In this document: piece after piece, positions 1,513 to 15,168 of the stretch
Position numbering within the stretch: position 1 is the stretch's first letter
Layout of the letters: each line of letters begins with the position of its first letter
NCBI GenBank assembly: GCA_019351895.1
Contig: JABBOH010000017.1
Span: 49,974 to 94,047, forward strand
DNA length: 44,074 nucleotides
Direction: 5' to 3'
DNA from: Pseudomonadota bacterium
GTDB lineage: Bacteria > Pseudomonadota > Alphaproteobacteria > Acetobacterales > Acetobacteraceae
The notes under the pieces: generated by a model
What the model saw: only the letters and a program-made list of their open reading frames with translations
Databases searched by the model: none
Told to the model about the DNA's origin: nothing
Made by a program: the position numbers and the translations under genes

Positions 1513-2898
1513 ATGACGACCCAAGCCTCGGCCTTCGCCAACCCGCGCCCGGTTCTGCGCGAGGTGCAGGCTCTCGTTCCGCTGGCGCTGCCGCTCATTC
1601 TCGGCCAGCTCTTCGGCATTGGAACTGATGTCATCATCTCGATCGTCGCGGGCCACATCGGCGCCGATGTCATGGCCGCCGTGGCGCTCGGCAGCAGCCT
1701 CTGGATCGTCGTCTTCATGGCCGTCGTCGGGCTCATGATGTCCCTGCAGCCGGCGGTCTCCACGCTCGACGGCGCTGGCCGGGGCCACGAGGCAGGGCAT
1801 CTGCTGGCCCAGGGCCTCATGCTCGGGCTCCTGGCGGGCACGCTCGCCGGCCTGCTGCTGGCTCTCGCCGGCCCGGCCTTCGCGCGTGAGACCGGGATGC
1901 CGCGCGCGATCCTCTCCGGCGTCGATGCCTTCCTGCACGGCGCGGCGTGGTCCCTGCCGGCGCTCGGCGTGCTCGCGGCCTGCCGTGGCGTGTCCGAAGG
2001 ACTGTCGATGACCCGCCCGACGATGATCTGCGGCGGGCTCGGCCTGATCGCGCTGGGGCCGAGCGCCTACGGTCTGATGCATGGGATCGTCCTGCCGGCG
2101 ATGGGGCCGATGGGCGGTTTCGGCGCGGAGGGCGCGGGTTTCGCGATCGCCGTCATCTTCTGGCTGCAGGCCGTCGCCTATCTTGGCTGGATCAGGATGT
2201 CGGGCCGCTACCCGGCTGACGCCTGGAGAGGCCGCGCCTGGGCGCCGGATCTCCGCGTCCTCGCCCGTCTTGTCCGCGTGGGCGCGCCCATCGCCGTCAC
2301 CATCGTGCTCGAGGTCTGCATGTTCTCGGTCGCGACGCTGATGGCGGGACGGTTCGGCGCGGTCGCCGTTGCTGGACATCAGGTCGCGCTTATGACCTCC
2401 GCCGTGTTCTTCATGGTGCCGCTCGGCCTGTCGCTCGCGGTGACCGTGCGGGTCGGCCGCGCGGTGGGGCAGCGCGATCCGGTCGCGGTCCGCCGCGCCG
2501 GTCTCGCGGGTTTCACGGTCATGCTGGTGGCGCAAGGCATCAGCGCGGTCGCGATGTTCTCGGCGTCCGGCACCATCGCCGGGCTGTTCACCCAGGTGCC
2601 GCCTGTCGTCACCCTGGCATCGACGCTGCTGACGATCGCCGCCTTCTTCCAGTTCGCCGACGGCACACAATGCGTGGCGATGGCCGCCCTCCGCGGGCTG
2701 CAGGACACGCGGGTGCCGATGCTGCTCGCCATGCTCTCCTACTGGCTGCTGGGCGTGCCGCTTGGCGCGTGGCTCGCCTTCGACCGTGGCTTCGGCGTGC
2801 CCGGCATCTGGATCGGCCTGATGGCGGGGCTGACGGTCGCGGCGATCCTGTTGACGACGCGGTTCCTGTGCAGGACGGCTCTGCCCGCCGGACGGTGA
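1513..2898 (+). CDS. MATE family multidrug/toxin efflux transporter (NorM-like)
   Basis: This is a 461-residue integral membrane protein with about 12 hydrophobic segments in two halves, the length and layout of MATE exporters. It opens with LVPLALPLILGQLFGIGTDV, and the second half has FGAVAVAGHQVALMTSAVFFMVPLGLS, the repeat-2 signature; GLQDTRVPML near residue 400 is also typical. MATE proteins expel cationic drugs or metabolites from the cytoplasm in exchange for H+ or Na+; the substrate cannot be read here. Upstream, 1220-1512 holds no gene and no convincing promoter. The next gene, on the opposite strand, ends 15 nt downstream, so the two are convergent and probably functionally unrelated. 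A 460-codon antisense frame across this gene is a composition artefact. Confidence 0.9.
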   Translation: MTTQASAFANPRPVLREVQALVPLALPLILGQLFGIGTDVIISIVAGHIGADVMAAVALGSSLWIVVFMAVVGLMMSLQPAVSTLDGAGRGHEAGHLLAQGLMLGLLAGTLAGLLLALAGPAFARETGMPRAILSGVDAFLHGAAWSLPALGVLAACRGVSEGLSMTRPTMICGGLGLIALGPSAYGLMHGIVLPAMGPMGGFGAEGAGFAIAVIFWLQAVAYLGWIRMSGRYPADAWRGRAWAPDLRVLARLVRVGAPIAVTIVLEVCMFSVATLMAGRFGAVAVAGHQVALMTSAVFFMVPLGLSLAVTVRVGRAVGQRDPVAVRRAGLAGFTVMLVAQGISAVAMFSASGTIAGLFTQVPPVVTLASTLLTIAAFFQFADGTQCVAMAALRGLQDTRVPMLLAMLSYWLLGVPLGAWLAFDRGFGVPGIWIGLMAGLTVAAILLTTRFLCRTALPAGR

Positions 2899-2913: not shown

Positions 2914-4110
2914 TCAGGCGGCGGTGGCGCGGGCTGCCGTCAGGGCCGCGACCGCGGGCACGCGCCGGATGGCGCCGATCACGTGATGCGCCGTGATGAG
3001 CCGGCTGCACTCGAACATGCGCGGCGTGTCTTTATGGCGCGGGCACCAGAGGAAATCGCCGCTCTCGAATGGCGCCGTGTCGTCATTCCAGCAGGAGTTG
3101 CAGGCGTGCCAGTTGATGACGCGGTAGGGCGTGCTGAACTCGTTCGTCGGGTGGGTGAAGCCGGAGATCATCACGACCGGCGCGCCCGCCGCCCAGGCGA
3201 GCCACGAGAGGCCGGATGAGAGGCCGACAAACAGCGTCGCGTGGCGCAGCCAGAGTGCACGCTCGACGAGCGGGCGGTCGCCGGTCTGGTCCTCGGCCGC
3301 GCGCGGCATGCTGTTGCGGATGAAGCCCACGGAGGTCACGGGCTTCTGGTCGATGCAGATGACCCGCAGGCCGAGGCCCTGGAGGAAGGCGACCACCTGA
3401 TCCCAGCCATCCGGGTTGTTCCAGTATTTCGCCTGACCCGTCGCCTGGGTGGCGATGCAGACGTAGGGCTCTGGGATCGGGCGCGCCTCGTCCGGCAGTG
3501 CCAGCATCGGACGCCGCTCCTCTGGGTCGACGCCGAGCAGATAAGCCGCATTCTGCTGCAGGCTGAGCGTCCGGCCCTCGCAGGTGTTCCACAGCCGGTC
3601 GCGGTCGCCGAAGAACATCATGACCTTGTACGTGGCGTAGTAGGGGCGGTCACTGGCGGCGTCGGGCGTCACGAAGCGAATCGCGGGATAGACGTCGCGG
3701 AACAGGGGAATGAGCAGCTCCGACATGCTGCAGGTCAGCCGGCAGCCGTGCAAACGGGCGAACTCCGCCGCATAGGGGAACCACGCGAGAATGTCGCCCA
3801 GCGTGCCGACGTGGAAACGGATCAGCACATCCTGGCCGCGTGCATCATAGCTGTGGTCGAGCACAGGCTTGTCGCCGTCGAAGACCTCGATACGGCCTCG
3901 GAAGAACCATTTCTTGGCGCTCATCACCATGCCCCCCGCGGCGGTCGACTCATAGAGCGTGTTGCCGGTGCCGATGTCTGAAAGCCGCACCCGCCACACC
4001 CCGGAGGCGCGGGACGGAAGTGCGACCCGGGCACCCTCGTTGAAGTCGAAGCGGATGCCTGCGGCGGCTTCTATGACCGGCGTCGGAGGCGGCGCGTCGG
4101 TCTGGGCCAT
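2914..4110 (-). CDS. Protein O-heptosyltransferase, BAHT family (TibC/Aah-like)
   Basis: This 398-residue protein matches the bacterial autotransporter heptosyltransferase family, cytoplasmic enzymes that move heptose from ADP-heptose to Ser/Thr of strand-loop-strand repeats in adhesins. Visible marks are a beta-rich N-terminal domain (about 15-95), the nucleotide-sugar loop HVGTLGDILAWFPY with Asp106 (equivalent to the proposed catalytic base), QATGQAKYWNNPDGW with Lys228, GLSSGLSWLAWA, and the family C-terminus HPTNEFSTPYRVINW. Four cysteines, C337, C340, C356 and C368 (C-x2-C-x15-C-x11-C), match the structural iron site of TibC. The ATG at 4110 follows a strong GGAGGT site. It is the last gene of the minus-strand cluster, 19 nt after a GT4 gene. 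No autotransporter lies in the window; the cluster instead carries type I secretion genes, so the acceptor may be a type I cargo. Family confidence is high; the acceptor is inference. Confidence 0.88.
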   Translation of the reverse strand: MAQTDAPPPTPVIEAAAGIRFDFNEGARVALPSRASGVWRVRLSDIGTGNTLYESTAAGGMVMSAKKWFFRGRIEVFDGDKPVLDHSYDARGQDVLIRFHVGTLGDILAWFPYAAEFARLHGCRLTCSMSELLIPLFRDVYPAIRFVTPDAASDRPYYATYKVMMFFGDRDRLWNTCEGRTLSLQQNAAYLLGVDPEERRPMLALPDEARPIPEPYVCIATQATGQAKYWNNPDGWDQVVAFLQGLGLRVICIDQKPVTSVGFIRNSMPRAAEDQTGDRPLVERALWLRHATLFVGLSSGLSWLAWAAGAPVVMISGFTHPTNEFSTPYRVINWHACNSCWNDDTAPFESGDFLWCPRHKDTPRMFECSRLITAHHVIGAIRRVPAVAALTAARATAA

Positions 4111-4129
4111 GAACGCGACCTCCTCGTTG

Positions 4130-5389
4130 TCATTCCAGCGTCGCCCGCGAGCGGCCCGGCAGCGGCTGGTTCGTCAGCCGCTCGATCAGCCGGACAAAAT
4201 CGTCGAGATGCGCGCGGCGGTCCAGATGCGCCTCGGCATGGAGGCGCGCACGGCGCCGCAACCTCCGGCTGAGCGTCGGGTCGTCGAGCAGGCGGAGGAT
4301 GCTGTCGGCAAGCCGGTCGGGTTCCAGGAAGGGCGTGAGCAGCCCGGTTTCCTCATGGGTGATGAATTCCCGCACAGGCGCGGTATCGCTGCCGACGATC
4401 GCAACGCCGATCGCCATGGCCTCCCGCAGAGACCAGGAGGCGACGAAGGGGTAGCTCAGATAGACATGTGCGTCGGACCGGCGCATCAGCGCCACATGGG
4501 TGTCGTAGGGCACCTGCCCGAGGAAATGCACGCGCTCGAGGTCGAGCTTCCCCGCCATCTCGCGCATCATCGTCTCCCGCCACGTCGTGCCGTCGGCGGG
4601 CAGCGCGCCATAGCCGGGCTGGTCGTGGCCGACGAGCGTCACGTGCAGGTCGGGCCGCGCCACCTGAAGCCTGGGCAGCGCGCGCATGAACACATGGAAG
4701 CCGCGATAGGGCTCGAGGTTGCGCGACATGAAGGTGATGAGCTGGTGCTTCGGCTCCAGCCTGAAGCCGTCGGGCAGGGTGAAGCGCCGGCTCGCACGCG
4801 GCGCGGCCGGGCTGCAGTGTTCGAGATCGACGCCTTCGCGCAGCAGCGCGATCTGCGGGCGGGCCCATGCCGGATAGGTGCTTCGCTGCCATTCCGTCGG
4901 CGTCTGGCCATGCGCATCGGGAAGCGAAAGGGCCGCGAGATTGACCGCGTTCTTCGCCCGCACCATGGGAAGGCGGTGCTCGGGCACGGGGAACTCGGGG
5001 TCGAAATTCACATCCTGGCCCACGAGATTGTAGAAGAACTCGAAATAGCCGAGCAGCGGCGTGCCGGGGAAGACATCTTGCATGTTGAGCAGTTCACCCC
5101 AGCCGTGATGCCCGATGATGATGTCCGGCACGAAGCCGAGCGCCTTGATCTGGCGCGCGGCGTTCGCGGCCGCCTCCGCGCGGCGGACCGCCATCTCGAA
5201 CTCGCGCGCATTCTCATGCGTGCGCTCATCGGATGCGCGCGGCGAGACATAGGCGATCTTCCGCACATCGGGGAGCTGGTTCGCGTTGGGTTCGCTCAGG
5301 AACACCACGTCGTGCAGCTCCCGCGTCAGATGGCGGACGATATGCACATACTGTCCGGGAAAGTTCTGATGGACAAAGAGAAAGCGCAA
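4130..5389 (-). CDS. Family 4 glycosyltransferase (GT-B fold)
   Basis: This is a 419-residue GT-B enzyme. The N-terminal half (MRFLFVHQNFPGQYVHIVRHL, then DIIIGHHGWGE and GYFEFFYN) resembles the Glyco_trans_4_3 acceptor domain. The C-terminal half has the nucleotide-sugar domain: ITFMSRNLEPYRGFHVFMRAL, HFLGQVPY, and the retaining-GT E-x7-E region around SWSLREAMAIG and APVREFITHEETGLL. It should transfer an activated sugar in the cytoplasm; donor and acceptor are unknown. The start is a TTG at 5389, with an AGGA about 9 nt upstream. It lies 19 nt ahead of the O-heptosyltransferase gene, which suggests the two act on the same glycoprotein, for example by extending or priming the glycan. No truncation or frameshift is seen. 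Confidence 0.85.
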   Translation of the reverse strand: MRFLFVHQNFPGQYVHIVRHLTRELHDVVFLSEPNANQLPDVRKIAYVSPRASDERTHENAREFEMAVRRAEAAANAARQIKALGFVPDIIIGHHGWGELLNMQDVFPGTPLLGYFEFFYNLVGQDVNFDPEFPVPEHRLPMVRAKNAVNLAALSLPDAHGQTPTEWQRSTYPAWARPQIALLREGVDLEHCSPAAPRASRRFTLPDGFRLEPKHQLITFMSRNLEPYRGFHVFMRALPRLQVARPDLHVTLVGHDQPGYGALPADGTTWRETMMREMAGKLDLERVHFLGQVPYDTHVALMRRSDAHVYLSYPFVASWSLREAMAIGVAIVGSDTAPVREFITHEETGLLTPFLEPDRLADSILRLLDDPTLSRRLRRRARLHAEAHLDRRAHLDDFVRLIERLTNQPLPGRSRATLE

Positions 5390-5483
5390 CGAGGCGTGTC
5401 CTATTCCAATGCCTCAATGAAGTTCGGCGGCAGGTCGGCCGGCCCGGCACGCATGGTCGCCGACCGCCACGCCGATGATGACG

Positions 5484-6494
5484 CTACCGCGTCGCTGCCT
5501 TGGATGACTTGGCACCTTTCGCGGCGGGTTTGACGGGAGCCGCTGGCGGGGAGGGGCGGCTTGCATCCGCCTTCGTCCCCGCTTTCGGCGGTGCGGCGAG
5601 TGGCGCCGATGTCTTGGCGGCCGTCGCTCTCTTCGGGGCGAGTTCGATGCGCATGGCTTCCAGCGCCGCGAGCGCCGGGGTCTCGCAGCTTTCATCGCTG
5701 CCGACATCCTCGAGCCGCGTGCCGTCGACGAAGGTCGCCGACAGGCGAAGGTCATAGCGCTTGGCAGCCGCCTCGGTGAGCTTGATCCTGAGGCCGAGTA
5801 TGGGGAGCGCCATGCCCCGGCTGCCGCAGAACTGGCCCGACTCCGACCACGGCGACATCCAGCCGCGGCCGAGGACGGCCTGGTAGCTCAGGTCGCCAGG
5901 TGCCAGATCCTCTGGCGCGGTGATGCTGAAGCCTTCGATCGCGGCCTTGCTGCCGGGCGTGCCGATCCAATCCCCGAAGGCGTGGCCCACGTCGCCCGCG
6001 CGTTGGACATGGGCGATGATGTCATGCGCCTCCGTCAGCACCATCACCGGACGCCGTGCGGCCCCAGCCGCCAAGGGGGCGACGGCTTCAGGCGCGCTCG
6101 CGGGGACCGCCTCGGCGGGCGGGGCCGCGTCCGACAGGCGCAGCACGCGCAGCTTCGGCGCGCCGTCCGTGGCGCCAGCGGGCTGATAGATGGTAATGAG
6201 GATCTGTGCCGGGCCCCGTCCGACCCGGATGAGGGCAGAATCGCCGTCCCCCGCGAGCCAGCCGTCGGGCCGCAGCGCCGCTATTGCGACGTTCGGATCG
6301 AAGGGATCGGTCGCGGAGACCCGCACGCCGAAGATCACGCCATCGGCGGGACGGGGGGAGCCGTTCACCAGGCAGAACGTGCCGGTCTCGAGCGTCATGA
6401 GATGGGCGGAGGCCCTCAGCTCCTGCACCCGGCCATCGGCGGGCCGGGCCGGGACTTGCCGTTCGGACGGGGACATTGGGAGCCTCACATTCAT
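5484..6494 (-). CDS. Uncharacterised protein with ChW-like region and basic Ala/Pro tail
   Basis: This is a 336-residue protein that I cannot assign to a named family. Residues about 20-125 form a beta-rich domain (LETGTFCLVNG, GVRVSATDPFDPNVAIAAL). Residues about 155-250 contain IIAHVQRAGD, GDWIGTPGSKAAIEGFSI, then YQAVLGRGWMSPWSESGQFCGSRG, recalling the clostridial hydrophobic-W repeat (HVQ..GW, GT.G...EAI, YQ). The C-terminal 55 residues are an Ala/Pro/Lys-rich low-complexity tail. No signal peptide is visible, so it is probably cytoplasmic. An alternative ATG at 6476 has a better ribosome site (TGAGG, 6 nt). It lies between two glycosyltransferase genes on the same strand, so it may be an acceptor-recognition or scaffold component. 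The frame is well supported; the function is not known. Confidence 0.72.
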   Translation of the reverse strand: MNVRLPMSPSERQVPARPADGRVQELRASAHLMTLETGTFCLVNGSPRPADGVIFGVRVSATDPFDPNVAIAALRPDGWLAGDGDSALIRVGRGPAQILITIYQPAGATDGAPKLRVLRLSDAAPPAEAVPASAPEAVAPLAAGAARRPVMVLTEAHDIIAHVQRAGDVGHAFGDWIGTPGSKAAIEGFSITAPEDLAPGDLSYQAVLGRGWMSPWSESGQFCGSRGMALPILGLRIKLTEAAAKRYDLRLSATFVDGTRLEDVGSDESCETPALAALEAMRIELAPKRATAAKTSAPLAAPPKAGTKADASRPSPPAAPVKPAAKGAKSSKAATR

Positions 6495-6602
6495 CTCGCC
6501 CGGGCGAATGGCCGGGCAGGCGGCAGGGGTTTCATGGGACGACGCTTATCGGTGCCAGCTATGTGCTACGCCCGGCGGGAAGCCGCAATATGAATCGTAT
6601 TG

Positions 6603-9600
6603 TTAATGGTATGCCTCTGCAAATGCGATGAGGCTGTTGTTGATTCCCGAGACGGGGAGAGCCAAGGGCAGAACCCAGCCGCGTTCCGCCGCGCGCATAC
6701 GTTCCGCCTGCGTTCCTATATCGAAGACTGCCGCGCGCAGCCCGGCGGCCCATGCGTCGCTGAGGGCGAAGCACCATGTTTCTGGCCAGATCGAGGGGAT
6801 GAATGCGATATCGGCTGCCTGCGCGGTGATTTCGGCCACCGCCGTCTCGGGGGCGAAGCGGTAGGTGATCTGCACCCGGCCGGTGTCGATCAGCCGCATG
6901 TCGTCATGGGTATAGCCGATGATGACGAAATCCATCGGAAGGTTCCGCTGGGCCGCGTCCCGCGCGCAGGCGAGCACCACGTCGTAGCCTTTCTCGGTGC
7001 CGATCGCGCCGATGATGGCGATGCGGCTCCGGCGGCCGGCGAGCGGCGCGTGCCGATGCTGCGTCCTGCCCATCGGGGCGGCATCGTCCTCCCAGGGCCT
7101 GATCTCGCCACGCAGCCGCGGAACATAGCGGCGCAGCCGCTTCTCGGCGTCCCCCGAGGGGAAGACGACGCGCCGCGCCGCCGCGAACTCGGACGCCGTC
7201 CAGCGGCGGAGATGCGCGACCGGGATGTCCTCCCGCAGCCGGCTGCCGAGATCGGCGATGCAGGTCTCGCACTGCGCCGCCTCGGGTTCGCCGCAGTAGC
7301 GGTTGGTGGTCGTCACCAGCGTCATGCGCGGGCAGATGGCGGCGTAGTCGTGAACCACGATGTCCAACGGCACATCGAGCCGCTCGGGTAGTGTCAGCAA
7401 GGCCTGGCTGTGGCCGAGACGATGATGCAACTCGACATGATCAGGCCGCTCGCGCCGCAGCAGGGTCGCGAGGGCGGCCAGCTCATCCGGCACGCGGTAT
7501 CGGAGATTGGGAAACTCCGAGCGCCATGCGTCGGGCCCTGACACACCCATCGCGACGCGGCAGATGCCCTCGCCGCCCGGCCTCAGGAGGATCGGGCGAA
7601 AACCCGCCGCCGCAAGCGAGCGCGAACGCGCGCCGATCTGCCGCTCGACGCCGCCGCCCTCGTCGTGGGTGATGAGGATGACCGAAGGTTTGCTGGACCG
7701 GCCCATCCCCCTCCAGCGCGCGAGGTCGAGCCGGCGGCGTGCCTCCGCGAGCGGGTCTGCCGCGACATGGGCTGCGATGAGGTCGTGGTAGCCGGGATGC
7801 AGCCGCTCCAGCAGGGTCAGGTTGCGGCGGAGCAGGTGCTCGCGCGCGGCGCGGAAGGATTGACCGCCGACATGGCTGACGAAGACGCCGGCCGCCGCCA
7901 TGTGACGCCAGCCGAGATGGCGCGAGCGCAGGCAGAAGTCGTTCTCCTCGCCGTAGCCCTGAGCAAAGACATCCTCCCGCAGCGGGCCGGTTTCGGCGAG
8001 GCAGTCGCGGCGGATATACATGCAGAAGCCGACGCTGGTCGGGATCTCGACGAGGAGACCCGCATTGACGCGGGCCGCCATCCGGTCGATCCGGCCAAGC
8101 ATCGGAGGTTCCGGCGGCGGCTCGGCGCGGTTCACGTGGGGGTAGCTGAGGATCGTGGCGTCGTTCGACAGCGGGGCGACGGTGCCGATATCGCGCGCCG
8201 ACCAAGCCGCGTCCCGCAGCCGCTCGAGCCAGCCCGCCGGGACCATGGCATCGCTGTTGAGCAGCACGACATCGCGCGATCCCGCCGCGGCGATGCCGGC
8301 GTTGGCGCTGCCGGGGAAGCCGAGATTGCGCGGGTTGCGGATCAGCGTGATGCGGCGGTCGCGCGCCAGGGTGGTCAGCGCCGCCACCAGCGCCGGTTCG
8401 GGCGAGGCATCCTCGACCACGATGACCGGCGTTCCGGCGGGCACCGTCGCCAGCACACGGGCAAGGCAGAGCCGGGTCGTCTCAAGCCCACGAAAGACAG
8501 GAACGACCACGGCGGGGGCGAGGCTTCCTCGGAGCGCGGCTTTCTTGCCCGCGTCGCGCATGGGACGCCGCGTATCGGCCCAGATCGCCACCAGCGCCGG
8601 CCCTTCGGCCCGGCTTCGCCCTTTGCGCCCGCTCGGCCCCATCATACGCGCGGCGGCGGTGGCGGCGTCCTCCCATTGATGAGGATCGAGCGGGCTGCCG
8701 GTGAGGTCGTGGCCCCACGTGTCGGTGACATGCAGAAGGCCGCGCCGCCGTTGCAACACCTTGGGCGGGACCTGGAAAGCCCTGGGTGCCGTGAGCCCGT
8801 CCATGTTCGGGAAGCGCGCCGGTCCGTCCGGTGCGATGACAAGCGCCGCGGGACGCCCGCTTTCCGTCGTCAGCCGCAGGCGGATGGGCGCATCCGCATC
8901 GGCGGGGTTCCAGGCCCAGCCGCTCAGGCCGCCGCCCTCGGCTCCGGGCGGGCTTTCGACGAAACCCTCGACCAGCCGCCGCCGCTCGAGGTCGATCGGA
9001 CTGCCGAGCAGGTGGCGGCCGCCGGCCATGACCGAAAGCGCGGCGGCCGCCATCCAGGCGCGTGGCAAAACGAGGCTGCCATCCGGCTGCCGGCGGGCTG
9101 TGACGGCTACACCGTCCAGCGCCAGCGTGACGGTGCCGGAGGCCATGACAGTGACGCGTCCGCAGGCATCGGCTCCGCACCACCCGGGGAGCGAGGCCGC
9201 GTCAGCGATCCGGCTCGCAAATTGGCGGAAATCGGGGTCGGAGGGTGGGGCGAAACGCGACAGCAGAGCGGCCGTGGCGTCCCTCCGCAGCGCAGGATCG
9301 GCGACGAGGCTCGCGGCGGTCGCGACGCCCCGATGCGCCGGCGCGGTGTCCGAGATCGCGGCGAGGCGGCGGAAGACGCCCAGAGCCTCGGGGTCCCGCT
9401 CGCGCAGCAGCACGATGCCGAGCAGAAAACGGACCTGCGTATCGTCCGGCCCGAGACGTGCGGCGCGCTCCGCCCAATATCGGGCATTCGCTACATCGCC
9501 CGCCGCGAGCGCGTCATGGCCGCGCTTCCAGGCATCGAGCGCGAGGTCGAGCGCCTCGGGCCGCATCGCTGTCCGCCGATCGGTCAGCAGCCAGTCGAAG

Positions 9601-9623
9601 CCAGGCTGCTCGTGGCTGTGCAT
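6603..9623 (-). CDS. TPR-GT2-GT4 fusion glycosyltransferase, 1006 aa
   Basis: This multidomain cytoplasmic glycosyltransferase has TPR-like helices at about 30-90 (AWKRGHDALAAGDVANARYW) and beta-rich modules at about 150-315 that include LSGWAWNPADADAP. A GT2 domain spans about 370-620 (VVVPVFRGLETTRLCL, IVVEDASPEP, the NSD donor motif in VVLLNSDAMVPAGWL, and GYGEENDFCLR). A GT-B/GT4-like domain spans about 645-1000 (VILITHDEGGGVERQI, IAIIGAIGTEKGYDVV, FIPSIWPETWCFALSDA). A cysteine cluster at about 765-789 (ICPR, YCGEP, CETCIADLG) may bind metal. With two catalytic domains it could add two sugars in sequence. It starts 3 nt after the Sel1-repeat stop, which suggests coupled translation; Met20 (9566) is an alternative start. 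It belongs to the glycosylation cluster. Substrates are unknown. Confidence 0.85.
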   Translation of the reverse strand: MHSHEQPGFDWLLTDRRTAMRPEALDLALDAWKRGHDALAAGDVANARYWAERAARLGPDDTQVRFLLGIVLLRERDPEALGVFRRLAAISDTAPAHRGVATAASLVADPALRRDATAALLSRFAPPSDPDFRQFASRIADAASLPGWCGADACGRVTVMASGTVTLALDGVAVTARRQPDGSLVLPRAWMAAAALSVMAGGRHLLGSPIDLERRRLVEGFVESPPGAEGGGLSGWAWNPADADAPIRLRLTTESGRPAALVIAPDGPARFPNMDGLTAPRAFQVPPKVLQRRRGLLHVTDTWGHDLTGSPLDPHQWEDAATAAARMMGPSGRKGRSRAEGPALVAIWADTRRPMRDAGKKAALRGSLAPAVVVPVFRGLETTRLCLARVLATVPAGTPVIVVEDASPEPALVAALTTLARDRRITLIRNPRNLGFPGSANAGIAAAGSRDVVLLNSDAMVPAGWLERLRDAAWSARDIGTVAPLSNDATILSYPHVNRAEPPPEPPMLGRIDRMAARVNAGLLVEIPTSVGFCMYIRRDCLAETGPLREDVFAQGYGEENDFCLRSRHLGWRHMAAAGVFVSHVGGQSFRAAREHLLRRNLTLLERLHPGYHDLIAAHVAADPLAEARRRLDLARWRGMGRSSKPSVILITHDEGGGVERQIGARSRSLAAAGFRPILLRPGGEGICRVAMGVSGPDAWRSEFPNLRYRVPDELAALATLLRRERPDHVELHHRLGHSQALLTLPERLDVPLDIVVHDYAAICPRMTLVTTTNRYCGEPEAAQCETCIADLGSRLREDIPVAHLRRWTASEFAAARRVVFPSGDAEKRLRRYVPRLRGEIRPWEDDAAPMGRTQHRHAPLAGRRSRIAIIGAIGTEKGYDVVLACARDAAQRNLPMDFVIIGYTHDDMRLIDTGRVQITYRFAPETAVAEITAQAADIAFIPSIWPETWCFALSDAWAAGLRAAVFDIGTQAERMRAAERGWVLPLALPVSGINNSLIAFAEAYH

Positions 9624-9626
9624 CGC

Positions 9627-11423
9627 TCAGTTGTGGATGAGCTGAGGACCCGGAGGGCTTCTGGCAGGCGCGCGGACGCGGTCCGCCTCGCTGAGTTCAA
9701 GCGGTGCGGGCCGCTCCTGCGGTGGCTCGGCGGCATTGAGAACCGCAAGCTCGGTCGCGGCCTCGCTGAGGCCGCTGTCGAGCGCGCGCTTGAACCAGAT
9801 CCGGGCTTCCGCGACATCGGCGGGCCCTGCGAGGCCCAGCCGGAGGTAGCGGCCGAGCATAAGCTGCGCCTGAGGGTGGCTGCGCTCCGCCGCCTTGCGG
9901 AACCAACGGAAGGCGGCAGGCCGGTCCATCGGCACATCGTGGCCGCCGCCGTACAGCGCGCCCAAGCCGAACATCGCCCCGCCATGGCCGAGTTCGGCCG
10001 CCCGGGCGAAAAGACGGGCGGCTTCGAAATGGTCGCGCGCGCCGCCACGGCCGTTCACCATCATCTCGGCGAGGACCACCAGCGCGTCGGCCATGCCGGC
10101 ATCGCCGGCTTTCGCGAACCATGTGCGCGCTGCCGCAGCGTCGGCCGGCACGCCGGTGCCTTCCAGCAGCATGCGCCCGTATTGGAACTGGGCATTGACG
10201 ATGCCGTCCGCGGCGCGATGCATCCAGAAGGCGGCGCGCTCCGGGTCTCGTTCCACCCCGAAGCCGCGCGACAGGCAGACGCTGAAATTGAAGGCGGCGA
10301 TGAGGTCGCCGCTTTCCGCCGCCTGCTCGAACCAGGAGCGCATGCGGTCCGGATCGGCGTCGCGGACGCTGCCCTGAAGCACGAGGTTGGCGAGATCGAC
10401 CTGCGAGTGGGCGTGCCCGGCACTGGCCGCACGTTCGAACCAGACGGCGGCCTCGTCGGCATTGCGGCCGACGCCGGCGCCGGTGAGGTAGAGCATGCCG
10501 AGCGCGCGAGCGGCCATGGTGTGACCGCCCTCGGCGGCGCGCTGAAACCAGACGGCGGCCTCAGCATAATTGGGCGGAAGCGAACCGCCCTTGGCGTAGA
10601 TGTCGCCGACCATGGCCGCGGCTTCGATGTCGCCGGCCAGGGCCGCGCGCCGCAGCCAGGATTCGCCGCCGACGGGGTCGGGCTTGGTGCCGCGACCCTC
10701 GATCAGCGCGAGTCCCAGGCGAGCCATAGCCGATCGCAGCCCCGTCGCCGCCGACTTCTGATAGAGCTTGACCGCGCGCGGCATGTCCTTCTCGACGCCG
10801 ACCCCATGCTCGAGCAACACGCCATGGAGATACTGCGCCATCGGCAATCCGAGATCGGCTGCCTCGGCGATCTCCTTGATGCCGTCGGTCTGTAGCGACG
10901 GGTCGCTGCCGGCGCGCCTGAGCATGGCGAGCCCGAGCCCGAGCTTGCCCTGTGCGCTACCACCCTGAGCCGCGCGCTTGTACCAGCCTTCGCTCTGTTC
11001 CGGGTTGCGAATGCCCTCGGGGCCGACGCTGAGGATGTAGCCGAGCAGCGCCTGGCCATCGGCCGAGCCCTTTTCGGCGGCGCGGCGCGCCCAGCCTTCC
11101 GCCGCCATGAAGTCGGGCTGTGCCGGCGTCTCCTCCGTGAAGAGGGCGCTGCGTCCGGTCGCCGATGCTTCTTCGGCATGCCCGGTGATGAGGAGGGTCG
11201 CGAGCGCCGCCTGCGCTTCGCCATGGCCTTGTGTCGCGGCGAGTTCAAGCCACCGCCGGCCCTCGGCGCGGCTGGGGGGTACGCCTTTGCCCTGGAGGTA
11301 GCAGAGGCCGACGCGATATTCGGCTGCGGCGAGCTTCGCCTGCGCGGCGCGAGCGACGAGCTTGAAACCGCCATCGGGATCGCCGCCATCGAGCGCGGCC
11401 TCTCCCTTCTTGAGAAGCCCCAT
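9627..11423 (-). CDS. Sel1-like (TPR-type) repeat protein
   Basis: This is a 598-residue protein made almost entirely of Sel1-like repeats: about fifteen helix pairs with the A-x-G-x2-G-x4-G-x-G-V and A-x2-W-x2-R-A-A-E-x-G pattern, for example EAAVWFQRAAEGGHTMAARA and RAAFWMHRAADG. Such solenoids are protein-binding scaffolds. I chose the ATG at 11423 (MGLLKKGEAALDGGD), preceded by GGCGGAG. The frame stays open to 11510, but that extension would start inside a perfect 16-bp hairpin and adds non-repeat sequence. No signal peptide is seen with this start. It sits between the type I secretion genes and the glycosyltransferases, so it may hold glycosylation enzymes or unfolded cargo near the exporter; that role is inference. 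The C-terminal 40 residues are Pro/Arg-rich and outside the repeats. Confidence 0.85.
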   Translation of the reverse strand: MGLLKKGEAALDGGDPDGGFKLVARAAQAKLAAAEYRVGLCYLQGKGVPPSRAEGRRWLELAATQGHGEAQAALATLLITGHAEEASATGRSALFTEETPAQPDFMAAEGWARRAAEKGSADGQALLGYILSVGPEGIRNPEQSEGWYKRAAQGGSAQGKLGLGLAMLRRAGSDPSLQTDGIKEIAEAADLGLPMAQYLHGVLLEHGVGVEKDMPRAVKLYQKSAATGLRSAMARLGLALIEGRGTKPDPVGGESWLRRAALAGDIEAAAMVGDIYAKGGSLPPNYAEAAVWFQRAAEGGHTMAARALGMLYLTGAGVGRNADEAAVWFERAASAGHAHSQVDLANLVLQGSVRDADPDRMRSWFEQAAESGDLIAAFNFSVCLSRGFGVERDPERAAFWMHRAADGIVNAQFQYGRMLLEGTGVPADAAAARTWFAKAGDAGMADALVVLAEMMVNGRGGARDHFEAARLFARAAELGHGGAMFGLGALYGGGHDVPMDRPAAFRWFRKAAERSHPQAQLMLGRYLRLGLAGPADVAEARIWFKRALDSGLSEAATELAVLNAAEPPQERPAPLELSEADRVRAPARSPPGPQLIHN

Positions 11424-11490
11424 TGCTCCGCCGAACTTAAGCCAGCCGAAAACCAACGGATTTGTCCTTCTGGTCGGGAAATTCTGAGGC

Positions 11491-11526
11491 GGAACGGCGG
11501 CGACCGCCACCGGTCGCCGCCGTTCC
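11491..11526 (-). promoter_or_regulatory. Perfect 16-bp hairpin between secretion and glycosylation genes
   Basis: Positions 11491-11506 and 11511-11526 are exact inverted complements (GGAACGGCGGCGACCG and its complement) around a 4-nt loop. On the minus-strand transcript it lies 26 nt after the HlyD stop and 67 nt before the Sel1 start. No T-run follows, so a simple intrinsic terminator is unlikely. A processing or stability hairpin, or a leaky terminator that lowers downstream expression, fits better. Confidence 0.6.
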
Positions 11527-11552
11527 GGGCTCAGGCGTCGTCGCGCGTGAGG

Positions 11553-12944
11553 TCAATCGGGCTCCCGCATGCCGGTAGTGAAGGCCGGCAGAACACGCTT
11601 CAGCAGGTAGGCGACGATCGTCCGCTTGCCGATGTTGATGTCGCCGGTGAGCGGCATGCCCGGCGTCAGCTCGAAACCCGCCGGCGTGTTATGGAGCTTG
11701 TTGTCCACGATCTTCACGCGAACCCGGTAGAACAGGCCGGTCGGCTCGCCCCCAGAGATATTGGAGATGCTGCCAGACTGGACCTGCTGCGGATCGAATG
11801 AGTTCGAACTGACGGATTCCACGACGCCCTTCAGATCGCCGTACATCGTGAACGGCAGGGTATCGAGCTTCAGGTCGACCGTGTCGCCGACGTGGACATA
11901 GCCGGAGCTTTGGCCCGAGATGTCGACCTCGCCCTCGAGCGGCGCGTCGAGGGGCGTCAGGCTGATGAACTTCTCGCCGGCCTGAAGCACCGAACCCACC
12001 GAGACGTTGGCGAGGTTGAGAACGACGCTGTCGCTCGGTGCCTTCAGCATGACGAGTTGGTGGATCTTGCGATCCTTCGTCAGCGCCTGCTGCGCGGGCG
12101 CGAGGCTGATCTCGGCCTGCTGCAGCTGCTGGCCGAGGTTCGAGAACCACTGCTTGATGAACGCCTCTCGCTGCGCCTCGATCGACGCGATGTCGCTCTG
12201 GGCCTTCTTGGCGGATGCCTCAGCGTCGGCAAGATTGCCCGCCATGCTGATGCGGTTGTCGGCTGCGGCGAGCGAGTCGAGGCGGCTGCCAACCTGCATC
12301 TGCTGCAACTTGCTGCGCATCGCCTCCACGTTGTTCGCGAGGGCGAGACGCGCCGCATATTGGCGCGAGTCGGACACGGACTGCTGCAACTGCGCTTGCA
12401 GGCTCCCGATCTGCTGGTCGAAATTCGAGACGCCCGCCTGATATTGGGCCTGCAACGCGTTGTAGGTCTGCAGCTGCAGCGCCGTCTGGCTATTCGTGCT
12501 CACCGGCAGATAGGGCTTCTCGGCAAGCTGTGCCTTCAGCCGGTCAATCAACGCCGTGTAGTTCGCAACCTGCTCCTGGTCCGAATTCATGTCGGCGCCG
12601 GAGAAGGTCGGATCGAGTTCCGCGAGCAACTGGCCCTTTTTCACATGCTCGCCCGGATGCACGAGAATGTTGCGCACGATCGCCTCGTTGAGCGGCTGGA
12701 TCTGCGTGGTCTCTTCGGTCGAGGAGAGGCTGCCCTGCGCGCTCACGACCTTGTCGGTCTTGATGACGCAAGCGGCCGTAACCGCGGCGATCGTCGCGAT
12801 GCCGAACCAGAGCGTGACGCTCCGGGCCGAACGCGGAACGGGCGTGGCGATCAGGGCGGAGGTGGGGGACTGGAATTCCAGTACCGCCAGCGCATCGCCC
12901 TGAGGATCAGTCGCCTTGCGCGAGGACAGGAGTTGGCGAGCCAT
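11553..12944 (-). CDS. HlyD family type I secretion membrane-fusion adaptor
   Basis: This is a 463-residue periplasmic adaptor that links an inner-membrane ABC exporter to an outer-membrane TolC-type channel. Residues 1-40 are cytoplasmic, one membrane segment follows (VTLWFGIATIAAVTAACVI), then a lipoyl half-motif (NILVHPGEHVKKGQLLAELDP). A long Gln/Ala-rich alpha-helical hairpin covers about 110-280, the second lipoyl half is at LKAPSDSVVLNLANVSVGSV, and the C-terminal beta-barrel ends with the family signature LTPGMPLTGDINIGKRTIVAYLL. Its ATG lies inside the transporter gene (38-nt overlap), so the two are translated together. No TolC-type gene is present in the window. The cargo probably carries a C-terminal secretion signal and is encoded elsewhere. 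Confidence 0.92.
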   Translation of the reverse strand: MARQLLSSRKATDPQGDALAVLEFQSPTSALIATPVPRSARSVTLWFGIATIAAVTAACVIKTDKVVSAQGSLSSTEETTQIQPLNEAIVRNILVHPGEHVKKGQLLAELDPTFSGADMNSDQEQVANYTALIDRLKAQLAEKPYLPVSTNSQTALQLQTYNALQAQYQAGVSNFDQQIGSLQAQLQQSVSDSRQYAARLALANNVEAMRSKLQQMQVGSRLDSLAAADNRISMAGNLADAEASAKKAQSDIASIEAQREAFIKQWFSNLGQQLQQAEISLAPAQQALTKDRKIHQLVMLKAPSDSVVLNLANVSVGSVLQAGEKFISLTPLDAPLEGEVDISGQSSGYVHVGDTVDLKLDTLPFTMYGDLKGVVESVSSNSFDPQQVQSGSISNISGGEPTGLFYRVRVKIVDNKLHNTPAGFELTPGMPLTGDINIGKRTIVAYLLKRVLPAFTTGMREPD

Positions 12945-15168
12945 GGCGAGTATTTCCCTGGTTTTCCGTCAGATGGCGATTCTGCTGCAGCCACAGCATG
13001 CGATAGACCGAGCAGCGCTCCACAAGCTCGGCATGGGTGCCGACATCGAGCACGGTGCCCTTGTCCATCACGATGATCGCGTTGCAGTCGACAAGGGAGG
13101 CGAGCCGGTGGGAGACGATTACCATCGTCCGCCCGGCGCCGATCCGCTTGAGGTTCGCGTTCACCAGGGCCTCGCTCTCCGGGTCGAGGGCGGAGGTCGC
13201 CTCGTCGAGGATCATCAGCTTCGGATCGACTATGAGCGCGCGGGCGATCGCGATGCGCTGGCGCTGGCCGCCGGAGAGGTTAGGCGACCCCTCCTGGATG
13301 AAGGTGTCGTAGCCGGCCGGCAGACGCTCGATGAATTCCTCGGCGCCGGCGAGGCGCGCGGCGCGCACCACATCCTCCATCGTCAGACCCGGACGGCCGC
13401 CGATGATGTTGTCCCGGATCGAGCCGCGAAACAGGAAGTTCTCCTGCAAGACGACGCCGAAGTTGCGCCGCAGATGGCGCAGGTTGATGGACCGCAGTTC
13501 GACGCCGTCGATCTTCACGAAGCCCGTATAGTCCCGGCTGATGCCCTGCAGCAGACGGGTGACCGTCGACTTCCCCGAGCCGCTGCGGCCGACGAGGCCG
13601 AGCATTGTGCCGGGCGGCACCGAGAACTGCACGTCGTCGAGCGCCGGGCGCTGCGACCCCTGATACGTGAAGGAGACGCCGTCGAACTCGATCGCACCCT
13701 CGAACGCCGGCCGCAGGCCGCGATCGATGCCGCGGATTTCCGGCGGGTTGTTCAGCACCGCCTGAGCCTCGGCCATTGTTGCGCGGACATCCTCGAAATC
13801 CTGGATCAGCTTGGCGAAGCTGATCAGCGGCGAGGCGACGCGCATCGAGATGAGCGTGAAGGCCATCATCGAGCCGATCTCGGCCTGGCTTTTGCTCGTC
13901 ACGGCGATGTAGGCCCCGAGCAGGATGACGCCATATTGGCAGTAGCGCTGCAGCGGGATCGTGAGGGTCGCCGGCCAGAGGGCAAGGCGGCCAGCCTGCA
14001 GGCGAAGGTCGCCAGCCTGGGCCACGTATTCGTCCCAGGCGCTGTAGCGCGCGGATTCGAGGGCGAGGGACTTGACCGTCTTGATGCCGTGCAGCGTCTC
14101 GACCAACACCGAGAATTTGCGCGACTCAGCCGCCGAGACCTTGCCGGACAGGATGCGGATGGGCCGCAGGAACACTGCGATGACCAGCATGATGAGCCCG
14201 GCCGCCGCCACGATCGTCCAGGAGAGGGTCGGCGACATGAAGAACATGATCGGCAGCATCACGAGCAGCATCGTGCCGTCGATGAAGGTCGTCAGCAGGC
14301 GGCCCGTGATGAACTCGCGGATCTGGTAGATTTTGCTGATCGCCTGCCCGATGACGCCGGTCTGGTTGCGCTCGAAGTAGTCGAGCGGCAGCGCGAGCAC
14401 TCGCTTGAAGACATAGAGCTGGATCTTGGCGTCGATCCGGGTCGACACGACCTGCAGCAGACTGCCGCGCGCATGCTCCAGGATCGCATCCATGATGGTG
14501 ACGATCACCATGATGATCACGATGAGCAGCAGCGTGCTCATGCTGTGATATTCGATGATGCGCTGGACCGAGGAGAAGACGAACAGAATCGGAATGATCG
14601 TCAGGAAGGTTATGATGAAGGACGAGAAGGCGATGGAGCGCAGGATGCTCCTCTCCATCATCACGAGCTTTGTCAGAAAGCCGAAGCTGAGCGGGGCATC
14701 CTCGTCGCTATCGCTGCGCTGCGGCCGGAGTAGCACGACCTCGCCGTCCCAGACCTGGGAGAGGCGCAGCTCGTCGACCGGAACGGCCACGCCGCCGCCG
14801 CCGATCGTTGGTTCCTTGACGAAGACGACGTTCTTGACCGCATCGGCCTCCACCACGAGGACGGCGCCGCCGTCCTTCATCAGCAGCATGACCGGGCCGG
14901 AGGTTTCCAGGCGCAGAAGCTGCTGCCATTTGAGCCGCACGGCCTTCGCCCACATGCCCTGTTCCCGTACCCATTCGACCAGCACGGCGGGCGAGGGCAC
15001 GGGAATGGCTGGATCGAGACGGAATGTACTGGGATCGAGATCAATGCCGTGATAGCGCGCGATCGCCAGCGCGCCGACGAGCCAGGTATGAAGGCCGGGC
15101 TCGCGTCCGACGGATTTCTCGTCGATGCGGCCGGAGCCCTCGGGTTCAGGACGGCTCGCTGTGTCCAT
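12907..15168 (-). CDS. Type I secretion ABC transporter with degenerate C39-like domain
   Basis: This is a 753-residue HlyB-type exporter. Residues about 24-150 form a C39 peptidase-like domain, but the segment where the catalytic cysteine should lie reads GLHTWLVGALAIARYHGID and has no cysteine. It is therefore a non-cleaving CLD domain, as in HlyB, which holds cargo rather than removing a leader. A six-helix membrane domain (about 175-450) follows, then the ATPase: Walker A GRSGSGKST at 527-535, signature LSGGQ at 631-635, Walker B LMILDE at 651-656 and switch His687. It powers one-step export of an unfolded protein with the HlyD partner that overlaps its 3' end. It is the first gene of the minus-strand cluster, and a sigma70-like promoter is visible about 155 nt upstream. 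Confidence 0.93.
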   Translation of the reverse strand: MDTASRPEPEGSGRIDEKSVGREPGLHTWLVGALAIARYHGIDLDPSTFRLDPAIPVPSPAVLVEWVREQGMWAKAVRLKWQQLLRLETSGPVMLLMKDGGAVLVVEADAVKNVVFVKEPTIGGGGVAVPVDELRLSQVWDGEVVLLRPQRSDSDEDAPLSFGFLTKLVMMERSILRSIAFSSFIITFLTIIPILFVFSSVQRIIEYHSMSTLLLIVIIMVIVTIMDAILEHARGSLLQVVSTRIDAKIQLYVFKRVLALPLDYFERNQTGVIGQAISKIYQIREFITGRLLTTFIDGTMLLVMLPIMFFMSPTLSWTIVAAAGLIMLVIAVFLRPIRILSGKVSAAESRKFSVLVETLHGIKTVKSLALESARYSAWDEYVAQAGDLRLQAGRLALWPATLTIPLQRYCQYGVILLGAYIAVTSKSQAEIGSMMAFTLISMRVASPLISFAKLIQDFEDVRATMAEAQAVLNNPPEIRGIDRGLRPAFEGAIEFDGVSFTYQGSQRPALDDVQFSVPPGTMLGLVGRSGSGKSTVTRLLQGISRDYTGFVKIDGVELRSINLRHLRRNFGVVLQENFLFRGSIRDNIIGGRPGLTMEDVVRAARLAGAEEFIERLPAGYDTFIQEGSPNLSGGQRQRIAIARALIVDPKLMILDEATSALDPESEALVNANLKRIGAGRTMVIVSHRLASLVDCNAIIVMDKGTVLDVGTHAELVERCSVYRMLWLQQNRHLTENQGNTRHGSPTPVLAQGD

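Follow-up and report, generated by a model that had tools for sequence, protein, structure and literature searches.

A conserved six-gene type I operon of Acetobacteraceae with its own glycosyltransferases: a candidate route for glycosylation before secretion

Here we describe a group of seven genes carried by a 44,074-nucleotide stretch of DNA (the window; G000:C62:49974-94047) from a bacterium of the Acetobacteraceae, whose genome, G000, comprises 4.7 Mb in 141 contigs. They encode an HlyB-type ABC exporter, an HlyD-type adaptor, a Sel1-repeat protein, a TPR-GT2-GT4 fusion, a ChW-like protein, a GT4 glycosyltransferase and a heptosyltransferase of the BAHT family (Table 1). A preliminary description had placed these genes on one strand and had read them as a single system that builds a heptose-based glycan on an unfolded cargo and then exports it. 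All seven open reading frames (ORFs) are indeed open on the minus strand where that description had placed them, and the named families are matched. As for the system itself, a glycosylate-and-secrete module of the first six genes is supported, whereas its seven-gene, heptose-based version fails.

The loci compared were picked by their ChW gene, so that the counts state what accompanies this protein. In a scan of named genomes, from which the best 80 of 303 confirmed ChW relatives were taken, 63 of the 80 loci hold the exporter, HlyD, Sel1, TPR-GT2-GT4, ChW and GT4 genes, all present and in this order. Fifteen of the other 17 start no more than about 100 bases from a contig end; the remainder are L180, whose downstream side is cut and whose upstream side is ambiguous, and L138, discussed below. 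Among 18 loci from further relatives the order is complete in 16 (counting L072, whose exporter gene is cut by the end of the stretch), and one more, L076, is cut by a contig end. The two sets give 98 operon loci, although they share organisms and cannot be added as independent cases; the locus titles include Acetobacter, Gluconobacter, Gluconacetobacter, Acidocella, Acidiphilium, Rhodovastum and many metagenome-assembled genomes.

ChW is found in 27 of 60 genomes, the window's own included, all of them among the 36 Acetobacteraceae and none among the 24 from other families; in a class-wide sample it is found in 5 of 289, namely three Acetobacteraceae and two outsiders. An orthologue of the exporter, at 49% identity or higher, is present in all six operon-bearing genomes tested and in none of nine family genomes devoid of ChW, where the best match has 39% identity (two of the nine, G007 and G032, hold distant TPR-GT2-GT4 matches). 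The ordered loci, together with the joint absence of exporter and ChW in nine of nine genomes, support the view that the type I genes and the glycosyltransferases are one conserved unit of the Acetobacteraceae. The preliminary description had named two outcomes that would speak against such a system. Loss of gene order in the relatives did not occur; independent conservation of the type I genes does not hold for the main copies, although one genome, G021, has ABC-HlyD paralogues free of glycosyltransferases.

Table 1. Genes and promoter-like sites of the locus (positions within the window)
Feature	Position	Strand	Remarks
HlyB-type ABC exporter, C39-like N-terminal domain	12907..15168	-	first of the conserved six; in all 63 complete loci
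HlyD-type periplasmic adaptor	11553..12944	-	TIGR01843; one N-terminal membrane segment
Sel1-repeat protein	9627..11510	-	PF08238, E 5e-83; third gene of the conserved block
TPR-GT2-GT4 fusion, double glycosyltransferase	6603..9623	-	PF00535, PF13439, PF00534
ChW-like protein, two all-beta domains and Ala/Pro/Lys-rich tail	5484..6494	-	PF07538; glycosyltransferase-associated by fusions
GT4 glycosyltransferase	4130..5389	-	PF12000, PF00534; sixth and last of the conserved block
BAHT heptosyltransferase	2914..4110	-	TIGR04414; TibC match; local addition
MATE transporter, convergent neighbour	1513..2898	+	adjoins GT4 directly in two sister species
Promoter-like site upstream of ABC	15350-15322	-	consensus scan only
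Promoter-like site upstream of ABC, inside neighbouring ORF	15538-15509	-	consensus scan only

The exporter and HlyD genes of the window overlap by 38 nucleotides, and the later gaps measure 42, 3, 108, 94 and 19 nucleotides; the gaps of 3 to about 110 nucleotides announced earlier are therefore correct as gaps, but not for the first pair. Over 57-70 loci the median gaps are -1, 32.5, 15, 94 and 39.5 nucleotides. Four promoter-like sites lie in the region against 0.9 in shuffles, and the sole minus-strand terminator-like site (10312-10294) falls within the Sel1 ORF, in no intergenic gap. By a hydropathy scan the Sel1, ChW, GT4 and BAHT proteins have zero membrane segments, TPR-GT2-GT4 has one weak segment (inside its GT2 domain), HlyD one and the exporter four.

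The exporter half of the unit has two marks of a type I system, an HlyB-type ABC protein with a C39-like (non-peptidase) domain and an HlyD-type adaptor. The ABC protein matches HlyB (7sgr) over profile positions 29-729, C39-like domain included, and scores 489 bits with TIGR01846, under that model's cut-off of 725; residues 1-160 of the window protein are free of Cys, and the 16 orthologues share none. The adaptor reaches 299 bits with TIGR01843 (cut-off 209). No TolC-type channel is among the seven genes, the rest of the genome not having been searched for TolC, and the genome has one exporter match at E 1e-60 (among 72 scored of 200 candidates). The locus thus resembles HlyB/HlyD/TolC type I secretion in joining an HlyB-type ABC protein with a C39-like domain and an HlyD adaptor in one operon, but adds three glycosyltransferase domains and the Sel1 and ChW proteins, and holds neither a cargo gene nor a TolC gene. 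In G021, two further ABC-HlyD pairs (L189, L190), at 51-53% identity to the operon exporter, stand beside repeat-rich proteins.

The ChW protein matches PF07538 in a single stretch at 32 bits (cut-off 22), and its structural model shows two all-beta domains and a low-confidence tail (pLDDT 79, pTM 0.53). In two other alphaproteobacteria (L202, L203) ChW forms the end of a fused TPR-GT2-GT4 chain and GT4 is the next gene, and elsewhere its C-terminal domain is fused to GT61 (L100:5763-7802, L085:6897-8708, L096:5751-7349). These fusions argue for a cytosolic role with the enzymes and not for a cargo, and point to ChW as a glycosyltransferase-associated partner. In L100 there are apparently two tandem copies of the ChW-type domain after GT61. 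The Sel1 protein is probably a cytosolic scaffold.

The TPR-GT2-GT4 fusion is modelled by AlphaFold with pLDDT 88 and pTM 0.87, and both its glycosyltransferase domains keep invariant columns across 40 orthologues. Among PDB folds, the GT2 part comes closest to polypeptide GalNAc-transferases and the GT4 part to BshA/MshA; the former likeness fits protein O-glycosylation.

A candidate for the cargo comes from L202, where the fusion is preceded, on the same strand, by a gene for a 399-residue Ser/Thr/Gly-rich RTX-like protein, whose C-terminus we take to resemble type I secretion signals. The same type of end is found on a strand-loop-strand protein encoded in G000, the window's genome (L082), and the C-termini of both were used as queries. 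Cargo-like C-termini were found in 33 of the 36 family genomes, on proteins which share this end and in which a signal peptide is not evident by eye and hydropathy. Among those of the operon-bearing genomes, 22 together have 2 Cys in 9647 residues. Five such genomes (G012, G017, G026, G029 and G034) encode a member of 443-475 residues starting MAI[VI]T, which is the genome's sole match in all of them but G012. In the GGxGx? motifs of the 22 operon-bearing proteins Asp is found in 18/109 and Ser/Thr in 32/109, against Asp in 118/129 in six proteins of operon-less relatives, the proteins being hand-picked from returned and fetched loci and the two groups differing in phylogeny. When four of the proteins are left out, the Asp counts become 16/95 vs 116/121; one of the six, from operon-less G008, is a cargo-type protein with Asp in 2/8. 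We propose that the cargo would be Ser/Thr-rich, almost Cys-free RTX-like proteins whose calcium-binding Asp have mostly been lost.

Furthermore, cargo-like genes are linked to glycosyltransferases. Six of 24 lie within 3 kb of TPR-GT paralogues vs 0.16 expected (Poisson P 2e-8; the pattern was spotted in two lists before counting), and five of seven full-length TPR-GT paralogues have a cargo-like gene within this distance. A glycosyltransferase-like ORF occurs in 8 of 25 cargo regions vs none of 20 controls, 12-kb regions set by hand at round numbers (Fisher P 0.005), and in 7 of 18 when the seven cargo regions under 9 kb are dropped (P 0.0025). In three genera (L252 of G034, L253, L254) the cargo gene stands between two multi-domain glycosyltransferases.

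Other cargo candidates were considered. No conserved cargo gene was found among the flanking ORFs of the 80 loci, where a divergent GNAT acetyltransferase upstream of the exporter is the most frequent neighbour (34 of the 80, L101-L180). Ordinary RTX proteins were rejected as general cargo, PF00353 being absent in operon-bearing G017, G018 and G033 and most matches lying in operon-less genomes; the counts, which cover 27 of the 36 family genomes, have a median of 3.5 in 18 operon-bearing genomes vs 47 in 9 operon-less relatives, a difference confounded by phylogeny. Hint_2 proteins have a median of 5 in operon-bearing vs 1 in operon-less genomes, with none in operon-bearing G021. The ALTTAQ-repeat protein was likewise set aside, as it is present in only 9 of 27 genomes.

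The seventh gene, BAHT, is a separate local addition, a passenger outside the six-gene unit. It is a full member of its family (TIGR04414, 566 bits, cut-off 200), aligns with TibC at E 1e-115 and keeps nine residues, Asp106, Thr224, Lys228, Arg284, Trp303 and Cys337/340/356/368, whose TibC counterparts (PMC4358343) are Asp110, Thr226, Lys230, Arg286, Trp305 and four iron-binding Cys. The preliminary description had counted BAHT in the set and had named, as a finding that would support it, recurrence of this set with type I genes around BAHT homologues. BAHT is missing from all 98 operon loci, and the six operon genes were not found in 8 wider BAHT regions (12-20 kb each); a heptose-based glycan would thus rest on a gene that stands beside this operon in the window alone. 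In two sister species (L060, L061) GT4 is separated from the convergent MATE gene by 7 nucleotides or overlaps it by 4, and BAHT occupies exactly this place in the window, so that this direct adjacency marks the point of insertion; two other congeners (L059, L062) have different neighbours there.

BAHT is above cut-off in 12 of the 60 genomes. A search for its target repeat, TIGR04415, in 17 hand-chosen genomes (12 with BAHT and 5 without) found the repeat in 12/12 of the former (one weak match in G018) and 1/5 of the latter; operon-bearing G014, G021, G026 and G029 have neither BAHT nor repeat. A strand-loop-strand gene adjoins BAHT, 41-320 nucleotides off, in four of the 8 wider regions (L089, L090, L092, L095) and not in L057, L091, L098 and L099, and in four regions around strand-loop-strand genes (L086, L093, L097, L100) BAHT was not found. 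The window itself holds zero strand-loop-strand-rich ORFs, and its BAHT therefore stands without such a partner beside it. BAHT most likely heptosylates strand-loop-strand repeat proteins, to judge from this association. In a tree of 24 BAHTs (midpoint root) two clades are separated with support 95/91; the window copy is in a clade of 6 members, and for four of its five companions a BAHT of the other clade lies no more than about 5 kb away. The genome's own second BAHT (L057:3679-10089, G000:C124) is located some 3 kb from a CBM60-GH5 cellulase-like protein, and in the 20 kb around it a strand-loop-strand-rich ORF was not found.

The strand-loop-strand proteins of the family carry a Hint_2 domain in 8 of 10 cases (L089 by coordinates only) and a barrel domain in none of the nine scanned, which indicates that they are not ordinary autotransporters; by eye and hydropathy, a signal peptide is not evident at their N-termini. 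The protein of L092:12999-19076 was considered as an autotransporter and set aside, the Pfam scan having matched no family. As one strand-loop-strand protein of the window's genome shares the type-I-like C-terminus, the product of BAHT may feed the same exporter here. A further ORF of this genome (L083:4048-5418, G000:C38) is an EmrA/HlyD-like membrane fusion protein with a strand-loop-strand repeat match near its N-terminus. Compared with Aah/TibC and their autotransporter partners AIDA-I/TibA (PMC4358343), the likeness is that glycosylation is tied to one secreted partner and that the window BAHT is a true family member; the differences are that the six conserved genes do without BAHT, that export is of type I and not of type V, and that the window BAHT has no adjacent strand-loop-strand gene.

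On balance, and with modest confidence, we favour the reading that the six-gene type I operon, with its own cytosolic glycosyltransferases, would glycosylate a cargo and then export it; what is observed is gene content, gene order, co-absence, fusions and the linkage of cargo-like genes to glycosyltransferases. The TPR-GT2-GT4 protein, held together by ChW and perhaps by Sel1, would put an O-linked glycan on Ser/Thr of the unfolded cytosolic cargo, and the separate GT4 would extend it. In turn, as the families suggest, the HlyB-type ABC protein, HlyD and a TolC encoded elsewhere would export the glycosylated chain in one step. The candidate cargo would be the Ser/Thr/Gly-rich RTX-like proteins with a type-I-like C-terminus and no evident signal peptide, whose genes lie elsewhere in the genome, some of them next to TPR-GT paralogues or to other glycosyltransferases, and the product would probably be a decorated secreted surface protein. 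A more speculative extension, which we consider rather doubtful, is that sugar replaced calcium in the type I secretion of Acetobacteraceae: TPR-GT2-GT4/ChW would O-glycosylate RTX-like cargo whose Asp have largely been replaced, and the glycan, instead of Ca2+-driven folding, would keep the chain soluble, move it outward or shape it outside. The scarcity of ordinary RTX matches in operon-bearing genomes fits this idea, with the same confounding by phylogeny.

Several observations weigh against glycosylation and export by the six genes. On the enzyme side, the likeness of the GT2 part to GalNAc-transferases is a general GT-A likeness, and the ChW fold has zero PDB matches under E 0.001. As to the unit, in L138 (2333-6199) ChW and GT4 are preceded by a TPR-GT9-like gene and not by TPR-GT2-GT4; in L075 (G030) TPR-GT, ChW and GT4 occur without Sel1, HlyD and ABC in the 8 kb upstream, and the two paralogous ABC-HlyD pairs of G021 have no glycosyltransferases. 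As to the cargo, its gene is not in the operon; 8 of 9 operon-less genomes encode cargo-like C-termini too, for the most part on ordinary RTX proteins, two of 27 operon-bearing ones (G033 and G035) gave no match, and 17 of 25 cargo regions (two of the window's own genome and L251 included) have no glycosyltransferase. Two more points, a flippase-like MATE gene which follows GT4 in the window and in two sister species, and the absence of a cargo-like gene within 3 kb of any of 28 main operon copies, the linkage being to TPR-GT paralogues, weigh in the same direction, and both would favour a different role for the enzymes. The glycosyltransferases might build an envelope polysaccharide or glycolipid, with the exporter sending an unmodified protein to the same surface layer and the operon reflecting co-regulation only. 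GT2 and GT4 enzymes of these families are indeed common in polysaccharide synthesis, and this is the alternative that we take most seriously, although we judge it unlikely: no initiating (phosphoglycosyl)transferase, flippase, polymerase or Wza/Wzc family was matched among the six genes (genes elsewhere were not searched), cargo-like genes adjoin TPR-GT paralogues well above expectation, and exporter and ChW are absent together.

That all seven genes act jointly, BAHT attaching heptose to a type I cargo as the first sugar of the glycan, would agree with the position of BAHT 19 nucleotides after GT4, with its conserved catalytic residues, with the shared end of the L082 and L202 proteins and with strand-loop-strand proteins which do not look like ordinary autotransporters. 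Yet the gene is missing from the 98 operon loci and the operon genes from the 8 wider BAHT regions, the target repeat tracks BAHT, four operon-bearing genomes do without both, and a strand-loop-strand gene adjoins BAHT in half of the wider regions, so we regard joint action as improbable. Still less credible is direct export of the glycan or of a glycolipid by the ABC-HlyD pair: the ABC protein additionally matches MsbA-type and glucan exporter models, but its match to HlyB runs across the C39-like domain too, and the adaptor is of the type I class. Nor do we expect the ChW protein to be the exported cargo, an idea with very little to recommend it; by family it is neither enzyme, scaffold nor transporter, and it has no membrane segment, but it or its domain is fused to glycosyltransferases in several genomes and it does not have the Ser/Thr-rich, RTX-like composition of type I cargo.

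Routes that glycosylate a protein and then secrete it are known for accessory Sec, two-partner and autotransporter export. In HMW1C with the two-partner adhesin HMW1, and in serine-rich repeat (SRR) adhesins with accessory Sec, dedicated cytosolic glycosyltransferases are tied to one exporter, as proposed here; these systems differ from the six-gene operon in their exporter and in their glycosyltransferase families. If the favoured reading is true, a family-wide, ordered operon would add a type I route to these pathways, in easily grown bacteria of foods and insect guts, with a cargo family and the glycosyltransferase-associated ChW as directly testable candidates; the earlier account is also corrected, in that the heptosyltransferase is the one gene outside the unit. 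In the literature within reach, which excluded most subscription papers, we found no description of this operon, nor is it described in passages on glycosylation in a review of type I secretion (PMC8277102).

Two further arrangements in the family were noted. In G032 (L191:235-13258) two TPR-GT41 genes, a 1484-residue ALTTAQ-repeat protein (PF20080), ABC and HlyD stand in a row, and in G019 two TPR-GT41 genes, ABC-HlyD and a large RTX gene are close to one another. The G032 locus resembles the operon in its glycosyltransferases, repeat-rich putative cargo and type I exporter within the same family, but has GT41 in place of GT2-GT4 and an exporter only 37-39% identical. With these arrangements, it seems that type I export became linked with glycosyltransferases on more than one occasion in the Acetobacteraceae.

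Finally, the GC content at third codon positions is 0.82-0.88 across the seven genes, and the GT4 gene apparently starts with a codon other than ATG, at one and the same residue in the window, L060, L061 and L062.

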